A DNA stretch of 64,000 nt, taken from NCBI GenBank assembly GCA_017622295.1, contig JAGARK010000052.1:1-64000 (forward strand), written 5' to 3'. The DNA is from Oscillospiraceae bacterium. Its GTDB lineage: Bacteria; Bacillota; Clostridia; Oscillospirales; Oscillospiraceae. The position numbers were made by a program, and so were the translations under genes. Shown here in pieces: positions 27,183 to 51,773 of this stretch (position 1 is the first letter of the stretch; every line of letters begins with the position of its first letter). Under the pieces are notes generated by a model. The model was not told the DNA's origin and searched no databases. It worked only from the letters and a program-made list of their open reading frames with translations.

Positions 27183-28109
27183 TCAGTTTGCAGGAACCTC
27201 GATGCCCAGCTGAGCGCACAGCTCTTCGTTGTAAACAACGGAGGGAGTCAGGGTTGCAATTTCGATGTCAGAGGGCTTCTTACCGTTCAGCAGAATTTCA
27301 GCAGCCATCTTGCCGGTCTCATAGCCCAGGTCATAGTAGCTGATGGAGAGGCTTGCATAGCAGACAGCGCCGCCGTAGCTGGTGTAGATGGGGACGTTCT
27401 TCTCGGTGCAGATGGTACCGACAATGGCGTCATTGGATGCGACGGTGTTGTCAGAGGGAACATAAACAGCCTTGACATTGCTTGCCATAGAGGTGGTCAG
27501 AGCCTGCAGCTCGGTGGTCTCGGAGAAGGTGTAGGCTTCCACAACGATACCCTCAGCCTCAAACAGAGCCTTGACAGCCTCATACTGGATCAGAGAGTTG
27601 CTTTCGTTGGTGCAGTACAGAACACCGACCTTATCGCCTGCCGCCAGATCCAGGGTGTCGATCATCATCTGAGCCTGCTCCTCAAAAGGAACGGCATCAG
27701 AGGTACCGGAAACGTTGGCGGGGATATTGCCTGCAAAGGTATCGTCATAATCGGTGACGGAGGTACCCAGAACAGGAATCTCGGTGGTTGCGTTCGCAGC
27801 AGCCAGCAGAGCGGGAGTGGCGTTGGCCATGATCAGGTCCACCTTCTTGGCAGTGAAGGTATTGATGACGGTGGGACACAGGTTGGCATCACCGGCCACC
27901 TGGGTATCGATGTCGATTTCCTTGCCTGCGGCTTCCATTTCAGCCTTCAGGGCATCGATAAAGCCCTGGGTCGCTGCATCCAGAGAATCATGCTTCATCA
28001 GCTGGCAGATGCCGACGGTGTAGGAATTGCTGCTGCCGCAGCCGGTAACTGCGCAGCAGATGCTGGCCAGCATTGCAATAACCAAAATAACAGACAGAAT
28101 CTTTTTCAT
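27183..28109 (-). CDS. Substrate-binding lipoprotein of an ABC amino-acid transporter (PF04392, TrpX-like)
   Basis: 308 residues from an ATG behind GGAGGAAAAC. A lipoprotein signal ends at AVTGC, so the mature protein is tethered outside the membrane by its Cys. 'YTVGICQLMKHDSLDAATQGF', 'VDLIMANATPALLAAANAT', 'IPVLGTSVTDYDD', 'VGVLYCTNESNSLIQYEAVKALFE' and 'VYVPSDNTVASNDAIV' are the family's conserved blocks. TrpX members bind tryptophan, but the leader RNA here points to phenylalanine. First gene of the operon. Confidence 0.9.
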   Translation of the reverse strand: MKKILSVILVIAMLASICCAVTGCGSSNSYTVGICQLMKHDSLDAATQGFIDALKAEMEAAGKEIDIDTQVAGDANLCPTVINTFTAKKVDLIMANATPALLAAANATTEIPVLGTSVTDYDDTFAGNIPANVSGTSDAVPFEEQAQMMIDTLDLAAGDKVGVLYCTNESNSLIQYEAVKALFEAEGIVVEAYTFSETTELQALTTSMASNVKAVYVPSDNTVASNDAIVGTICTEKNVPIYTSYGGAVCYASLSISYYDLGYETGKMAAEILLNGKKPSDIEIATLTPSVVYNEELCAQLGIEVPAN

Positions 28110-28164
28110 TATGTTTTCCTCCAATTTACGTGTGTTTATTTGATCCCGTTTCCCGGGAAGAAAT

Positions 28165-28276
28165 ACAAAAATAACGCCCCTGCACCAAGGCAGGGACGTA
28201 GATTACGCGGTACCACTCTGCTTCGCACAGACCTTACAGTCTATGCCTTACAGACTCCTTGCCTGCAAAAGCGGTA
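28165..28276 (-). promoter_or_regulatory. Second antiterminator/terminator unit of the T-box leader, without its own Stem I
   Basis: On the minus strand a second T-box sequence AGAGTGGTACCGCG (28219-28206) is followed by a terminator (ACGTCCCTGC with GCAGGGGCGT, then TTATTTTTG). Only about 60 nt separate the first terminator from this box; they hold a small hairpin (AGTCT...AGACT) and two CTGTAAGG repeats but no AGTA/GAA specifier loop and no GGTTGGTG motif. So this is a duplicated decision module without a codon-reading arm. Confidence 0.8.
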
Positions 28277-28525
28277 TAAAAAAATCGTCCCTGTATCAAA
28301 ACAGGGACGATCAAAAATCGCGGTACCACTCTGCTTTTGCATCCCCCTTCCGGGCGGATGCCTCAATAGGCTAAAAAGTCTTAGCGATGTAACGGTCGCA
28401 CCCGTTGTGCCTACTGCTGTTTTCAGCACACTGCTCGCAGAATGAACTTCACATCAGACTCCGCACTGCCTCGCACCAACCGGCAGCTCTCTGGGGCGTT
28501 GTCACATGCTACTCTTTCTGCTCAG
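28277..28525 (-). promoter_or_regulatory. T-box riboswitch, predicted to read tRNA-Phe
   Basis: On the minus strand Stem I starts GAGCAGAAAGAGTAGC (loop-E AGTA), has the apical AGAGAGCTGCCGG/TTGGTGCGA motif, and closes with GTGAAG-TTC-A-TTCTGC. The three bases before the purine and the closing TTCTGC strand are TTC, a Phe codon. The same alignment in the cysS leader gives TGC for Cys. The T-box AGAGTGGTACCGCG (28332-28319) has TGGT, which pairs with a tRNA ending in A73: true for tRNA-Phe and not for bacterial tRNA-Trp. A terminator with TCGTCCCTGT and a T7 run follows. Confidence 0.88.
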
Positions 28526-28555
28526 ACGCATTTTGCTTTATCAAATTATGGATTT

Positions 28556-28584
28556 ATGGTATCAAATAATCATCCATCTGTCAA
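28556..28584 (-). promoter_or_regulatory. Sigma-A promoter of the T-box leader
   Basis: On the minus strand TTGACA (28584-28579) and TACCAT (28561-28556) are 17 nt apart, about 30 nt upstream of the T-box Stem I. Confidence 0.65.
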
Positions 28585-28627
28585 GCATTTTTGTCCGCCA
28601 CAGAAAATATTCATATATGCCTTCTGT

Positions 28628-51564: not shown

Positions 51565-51756
51565 AAAAAACGCCTCTTATGCCACAGGGCATAAGAGGCG
51601 GGTAAAACATACTCGCGGTTCCACTCTCATTTATCGCTTGATATGGAATTGTCCCGCTCCCGGACGCACTTTCACGCACCGCTCCTGCCCGGGCTTTCAG
51701 CCGCTGACCCAGGCTCTCTGAAGGTTTGGATAAAACGTTACTCTTTCCGCTCAACG
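51565..51756 (-). promoter_or_regulatory. T-box riboswitch reading tRNA-Cys
   Basis: On the minus strand Stem I has GAGCGGAAAGAGTAAC (loop-E AGTA) and closes with GTGAAAG-TGC-G-TCCG, giving specifier UGC (Cys). The T-box is AGAGTGGAACCGCG (51627-51614); its TGGA pairs with U73, the discriminator of tRNA-Cys. The terminator is CGCCTCTTATGCC with GGCATAAGAGGCG and T6. Low charged tRNA-Cys would favour readthrough into cysS-polA-rimI-tsaD. Confidence 0.93.
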
Positions 51757-51773
51757 CAGGATTTTACTCATAT

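Follow-up and report, generated by a model that had tools for sequence, protein, structure and literature searches.

Double and partial T-boxes are reportedly covered by the surveys of Vitreschak 2008 and Gutierrez-Preciado 2009. "Partially tandem" T-boxes, a term that we understand as a single sensor followed by repeated 3' modules, have already been described, and the available part of the source presents their way of working as an open question (PMC7583486). Serial terminators that answer to the same kind of ligand are also known from full tandem T-boxes and pseudo-cooperative tandem riboswitches; there, according to the accessible sections of the descriptions, each gate has a sensor of its own (PMC12452182, PMC9413887, PMC9481103), whereas in the leader described here a single sensor stands before two gates. 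A review of tandem riboswitches, in the portion consulted, has several sensors with one or more platforms, and no case of one sensor with several platforms was seen there (PMC9481103). As for the genes controlled, the trpXYZ operon of Streptococcus suis is likewise a TrpX-type aromatic ABC importer under T-box control, but the excerpted description gives it a Trp T-box with a UGG specifier and a UGGC T-box (PMC9382623) rather than the UUC, UGGU and two gates found here. A Phe T-box also controls a transporter in the B. cereus group, although that transporter belongs to a different family (the Phe row of Table 1 in the part of that paper seen lists NSS only; PMC2494555). Within the literature searched, which comprised few papers, in part only and mostly without subscription journals, we found no Phe T-box before a PF04392-type operon.

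The leader analysed here lies in a 64,000-nt window (positions 1 to 64,000 of contig JAGARK010000052.1, assembly GCA_017622295.1) from an Oscillospiraceae bacterium, a gut bacterium. It is a member of the known partially tandem T-boxes, a rare and poorly understood form, and not a new kind of switch; since the layout was already known (PMC7583486, as far as that source was available), the finding is less novel than the original prediction held. Its features are collected in Table 1.

Table 1. Features of the two-gate leader and of the operon behind it
Feature	Position	Strand	Basis or remark
-35-like TTGACA	28579..28584	(-)	position from sequence
Putative -10 TACCAT	28561-28556	(-)	17-nt spacing from TTGACA; read by eye
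Stem I with AGAGA/GNUG apical motifs	28433..28529	(-)	Rfam alignment
Specifier codon UUC (Phe)	28444..28446	(-)	place in sequence and 13/13 leaders
Stem II (AGUA / GAA, S-turn type)	28406..28431	(-)	read in sequence
Stem IIA/B pseudoknot-type element (GCGA / UCGC)	28384..28405	(-)	read in sequence
Stem III, gate 1	28339..28361	(-)	sequence and folding
Antiterminator 1, bulge UGGUACC	28301..28334	(-)	Rfam alignment and sequence
Terminator 1	28278..28312	(-)	hairpin -17.7 kcal/mol, uninterrupted U7
Stem III', gate 2	28225..28246	(-)	9-bp hairpin, equivalent of Stem III
Antiterminator 2, bulge UGGUACC	28190..28221	(-)	sequence
Terminator 2	28167..28200	(-)	hairpin -18.2 kcal/mol; U-tract broken by A
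Small hairpin 3' of terminator 2	28144..28159	(-)	sequence and folding
Substrate-binding protein, PF04392 (TrpX-like)	27183..28109	(-)	Pfam, structure relatives, NCBI model
Permease, PF02653	26230..27162	(-)	Pfam
ATPase, PF00005	25440..26246	(-)	Pfam

The T-box model of Rfam (RF00230) covers 28535-28300 on the minus strand with 117.7 bits, above its gathering score of 93 (E 2.1e-25). Read 5' to 3' on that strand, TTGACA is followed by Stem I with the UUC specifier, Stem II, the Stem IIA/B-type element, Stem III, antiterminator 1 and terminator 1, and these by Stem III', antiterminator 2, terminator 2, a small hairpin and the ribosome-binding site. The limits first proposed for the leader, 28165..28584, agree with the start of TTGACA (28584-28579) and the end of terminator 2 (28167). 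The 17-nt T-box core AGCAGAGUGGUACCGCG occurs exactly twice in the window (28335-28319 and 28222-28206, minus strand). With two mismatches allowed its chance expectation is 0.01, and two copies appeared in 0 of 100 shuffles, which rules out a chance duplication of the motif. Apart from these copies, which start 113 nt from each other, no direct-repeat family was found in 28140-28590. The gap separating the two 11-nt cores is only 102 nt (124 nt in all), so that a second Stem I cannot fit; none was found between gates 1 and 2, and RF00230 matches the leader once. The original prediction of a duplicated antiterminator/terminator unit lacking a second Stem I was therefore correct, the second unit (Stem III', antiterminator, terminator) occupying 28246-28167 with the core repeated exactly, but its description missed the Stem III' hairpin (28246-28225) between the gates. 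By sequence and folding, the antiterminator and the terminator with its U-tract are mutually exclusive in both gates, and the second U-tract is interrupted (UUAUUUUU). The leader thus combines one Stem I with two antiterminator/terminator modules. By a criterion of our own, the two modules of a partially tandem T-box should also be able to read the same tRNA, and by their sequence (UGGU in each) they are.

The UUC specifier is kept in all 13 related leaders, and the helix around it varies on both strands; the base 3' of UUC is A in 6 of the 13 and C in 7. In the window leader UUC is followed by A and then by UUCUGC, the partner of a 5' GCAGAA in the basal Stem I helix, and the codon matches the tRNA-Phe (GAA) of the genome. 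By our reading, this place one base 5' of the basal helix is that of the codon in the Met (two), Ile and Thr T-boxes of the same genome. Seven other T-boxes are present in this genome: those for Met, Ile and Thr have the order codon, one purine, basal helix, the cysS leader is readable likewise, the alaS leader has no such simple order and an ilvA-like leader is ambiguous (gene names come from reading the translations). UUU accounts for only 1% of Phe specifiers in TBDB according to the part of its description seen (PMC7778990), so that UUC is the expected form. Two other specifiers were rejected. GUU (Val), one base earlier, had been named beforehand as the case that would speak against Phe; it is found in only 7 of the 13 leaders, the other 6 reading AUU in that frame. 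UCA or UCC (Ser) would leave no base between codon and helix, and G73 was read on the single Ser tRNA looked at.

Discriminators were read with ARAGORN at 30 of the 44 tRNA loci of the genome and in the window. The tRNA-Phe (GAA) ends in A-CCA (A73), as do the Val tRNAs, and tRNA-Trp ends in G-CCA (G73), as does the Ser tRNA examined; the UGGU of both gates consequently fits Phe or Val and not Trp or Ser. The UUC in Stem I and the UGGU of both T-boxes, proposed originally to fit an A73 tRNA-Phe and not tRNA-Trp, are thus borne out by the tRNAs of the same genome and by the codon place in its other T-boxes. Specifier and discriminator together support the assignment of the leader to tRNA-Phe.

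Behind the leader, the original prediction placed a TrpX-type transporter of family PF04392. The family was right and the protein is TrpX-like, but with 186.4 bits it stays below the cut-off of 390 of the NCBI TrpX model (NF041285). Three solved relatives of the same family were found, 6hni, 3lft and 3lkv, of which 6hni, a Tyr binder, scores highest. According to the part of the source seen, these are CD0873 (6hni), which binds Tyr, SP1069 (3lft), which binds Trp, and VC_1101 (3lkv), which binds Phe, and their preference is said to depend on two residues (PMC6816091). Site 1 is Glu in CD0873 (Glu-263, in contact with the hydroxyl of Tyr) and Ala in SP1069 and VC_1101; site 2 is Gln in SP1069 (Gln-284) and Tyr in CD0873 and VC_1101. 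The window protein has Tyr-245 at site 1 and Tyr-258 at site 2, and in our alignment a loop three residues shorter than in CD0873. It therefore lacks the Trp-type Gln, site 2 being Tyr in 37/37 aligned proteins (37 of 40 loci, with L054, L056 and L059 left out), and it lacks the CD0873-type Glu, which 23 of 24 paralogues carry. Like the Phe binder VC_1101 it combines the absence of Glu at site 1 with Tyr at site 2, but its site 1 residue, Tyr, is Ala in VC_1101. Such a pocket speaks against Trp and against a site dedicated to Tyr, and fits Phe.

Site 1 is Tyr in the 12 proteins of the T-box-led group (11 at 68-100% identity, L049 at 52%). All 13 proteins seen behind a UUC T-box are without the Tyr-type Glu, a count that reflects few evolutionary events. 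The coupling between pocket and leader is imperfect, since one paralogue (L051, 45% identity) has Asp at site 1 with a UUC T-box upstream, and a protein of another genus (L010, 78% identity) has Tyr at site 1 with no T-box seen upstream of its gene; a clean rule linking a Phe T-box to Tyr in the pocket is thereby ruled out. The L010 gene was perhaps transferred. Rfam was run on 13 of the 24 paralogous loci, the other 11 being scanned for motifs, and among the 13 a T-box was found at L051 alone. The genome's second copy of the binding protein has Glu at site 1, and no T-box core was found near it. The same genome encodes prephenate dehydratase and can thus probably make Phe. The imported substrate is probably an aromatic amino acid, with phenylalanine the likeliest, which would place a Phe-linked importer in a family usually named for tryptophan.

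Close relatives show the leader in two forms. Two gates are present in 4 of the 12 leaders of the group and one gate in the other 8, and leaders with one gate (G146, G147) and with two (G000, G143, G168, G189) precede the same operon. The two forms differ above all by one module of ~113 nt, and the locus offers a natural test pair for partially tandem T-boxes. Among the four species with gate 2, its 17-nt core is invariant, compared with 44 of 118 fourfold sites (0.37); the corresponding chance of ~5e-8 is a rough figure, valid for a stretch chosen beforehand as T-box. Antiterminator helix A1 forms in the 16 gates, with the same single mismatch in all but one, which has none; in helix A2 pairs 1-4 form in 16/16 gates and pair 5 in 14/16, with A-U, U-A and G-C exchanges. 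All four gate-2 copies have the Stem III' hairpin, with interruptions in L039 and L044 and none in the other two. Outside the core, gates 1 and 2 have diverged from each other. Gate 2 thus looks to be under selection. The U-run of terminator 1 is unbroken in the four two-gate species and that of terminator 2 is interrupted in the same four, and terminator 2 may be weak.

The junction between terminator 1 and gate 2 looks homologous in the four two-gate species, and its sequences suggest a single origin of gate 2; the best binding-protein tree has two changes, with a single origin in 24% of bootstraps. Searched as exact cores at 91-121 nt spacing, the layout occurs in 4 of 136 genus genomes, each time at this operon, and an assembly artefact is for this reason unlikely; no match of a reversed control pattern was seen in this search. 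An Oscillospiraceae bacterium RGIG4623 locus (L110) has gates and binding protein as in L039 and is probably from the same assembly as G189, hence no fifth case. Among 400 sampled genomes of the family and 394 of the order, which include few genus members and were searched with a slightly different pattern (exact cores in one spacing range, by which degenerate gates can be missed), only the window's own genome matched; the reversed control matched at least 2 genomes in each of these samples, compared with none for the true pattern outside the window's genome. With 4 of 136 genus genomes carrying the layout and only the own genome in the wider samples, any benefit would be local or small.

The two-gate layout itself recurs in distant lineages. 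A pattern scan of contigs of GTDB species gave at least 119 stretches whose two gates leave no room for another Stem I between them, and a terminator/CGTC filter leaves 57 matches in 56 loci among the matches listed. Titles were available for 80 of the at least 119, and the filtered matches that have them are largely from Lactobacillaceae, Alicyclobacillaceae, Veillonellaceae and Peptococcaceae/Syntrophomonadaceae, with single cases from other phyla among the matches listed. The Stem III' hairpin was not found to be general in this set, only 24 of the 57 linkers listed folding more than 1 sd better than shuffles. Both gates carry the same discriminator-facing letter in 45 of the 57 matches listed (shuffle mean 24.6, 0/20000 as high), and one discriminator fits both gates, with G-U allowed, in 53 of them (shuffle mean 34.8, 0/20000); both counts are inflated by the duplication itself and by kinship, and after dereplication they become 35/44 and 41/44 among the matches listed. 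The survey leads us to predict that the tRNA picked by Stem I is read at each of the two gates.

The four exceptions among the 57 matches listed (L094, L114, L115 and L143) are all His-type (CAC) by motif; they come from Lactobacillaceae and precede similar amino-acid ABC permeases (typed by Pfam for L143 only). Among the matches listed that are not labelled His, the letters agree in 32 of 37 and are G-U compatible in the other 5, compared with agreement in 13 of the 20 labelled His; the His and Phe labels come from motifs and miss some cases (L188 and L074, labelled other, look His-type). In tRNA-His alone, as far as is known, the discriminator C73 is paired with an extra G-1, so that the gate letter there has nothing to match, and the His-type exceptions fit the reading of the same tRNA by both gates rather than oppose it. 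Phe and His seem frequent among two-gate leaders, by raw counts from the matches listed.

A UUC context is found at 18 of the at least 119 loci before filtering and in 16 of the 57 filtered matches; of the two outside the 57 (L097, L151), L151 was judged a chance match in a high-GC genome. U, the letter for A73, stands in both gates in 15 of these 16 matches listed, the misfit being L086 with C in gate 1. One of the 16 (L110) has the same transporter as the window. The UUC loci typed by Pfam (L086, L096, L102, L113, L124, L169, L179, L185 and L186) have a DAHP synthase, SSS symporters, a Peripla_BP_6 protein or an AMP-binding enzyme behind the leader, and differ in this from the TrpX-type ABC operon of the window. 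DAHP synthase-like genes stand behind the UUC two-gate T-boxes of L086, L113, L120, L133, L141, L169, L181 and L185 (Pfam was run on L086, L113, L169 and L185).

The best explanation for the locus, to which we give a probability of roughly 0.7, is that of a transcriptional tRNA-Phe T-box whose 3' module has been duplicated in tandem, setting two terminators in series before an importer of aromatic amino acids, likely Phe. A tandem duplication of the module (Stem III plus antiterminator/terminator) would oblige RNA polymerase to pass two intrinsic terminators one after the other. Stem I would select tRNA-Phe via its anticodon, and the uncharged 3' end would pair with the UGGU of gate 1 and open it; beyond gate 1, the UGGU of gate 2 would then pair with a tRNA of that class, in the simplest case the very molecule that Stem I still holds, and with charged tRNA each terminator would form. 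The expected effect would be a lower basal leak, given by the product of the two leaks (a squared leak if the tRNA is retained), and tRNA exchange between the gates, if possible, would make the response steeper as well. More tentatively, and with odds against it, one tRNA selected once could be handed from gate 1 to gate 2 and its amino acid examined twice, which would amount to a proofreading of starvation; if so, the fact that His is the only specificity seen without a single fitting discriminator would be a footprint of this reuse.

The original prediction left two possibilities side by side, one codon-reading arm controlling two gates in series or a second gate without a codon check, and the former is favoured. 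A second gate sensing uncharged tRNA by the acceptor end alone, as a general sensor or one for a different tRNA, would account for the missing second Stem I and for the four His-type leaders whose gate letters no single discriminator pairs with. The match between the discriminator letters of the gates makes it very unlikely: both gates of the window need the A73 of tRNA-Phe, most two-gate matches listed (53/57) fit one discriminator, and the exceptions are confined to a tRNA, His by motif, whose discriminator is taken up by G-1. Acceptor-only binding of tRNA to a T-box is, moreover, established as weak. Still less probable is that gate 2 is a recent duplicate, free of selection and on its way out. 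Its rarity in the genus (4/136), the 8 one-gated leaders out of 12 and the interrupted U-tract would be expected of such a copy, but an invariant core against 0.37 invariance at fourfold sites (the rough ~5e-8 above), helices that are kept and the divergence of the two gates elsewhere would not.

Closer to the series reading, and a sub-case of it with overlapping odds, is the idea that gate 2 acts mainly as a fail-safe terminator: a tRNA that opens gate 1 would nearly always open gate 2, giving less leak and no added sensing. A tRNA that remains on Stem I would have this effect, and the hairpin energy of terminator 2 (-18.2 kcal/mol) is that of a strong terminator, but a plain terminator needs no conserved UGGU bulge, A1/A2 helices or Stem III', and we consider this restriction rather unlikely. 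A further alternative concerns the substrate only and is compatible with gating in series, namely a transporter for tyrosine or tryptophan whose Phe T-box serves as a proxy for aromatic shortage. The nearest solved relatives, which bind Tyr, Trp and Phe with the Tyr binder scoring highest, lend it some weight; the absence of both the Trp-type Gln and the Tyr-type Glu, together with the TrpX model score of less than half the cut-off, leaves it unlikely, at about one chance in four, and phenylalanine the preferred substrate.

Two smaller elements of the window deserve mention. A second T-box, which has UGGA and probably a UGC specifier, lies at 51591-51763 ahead of a cysS-like gene; its score of 60.7 bits is below the Rfam cut-off. 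The hairpin at 28144-28159, between the last terminator and the ribosome-binding site of the two-gate leader, appears in the folds of 10 of the 12 group leaders (in L042 by eye only; it is absent in L047) with differing sequences, as if it were kept for its structure.
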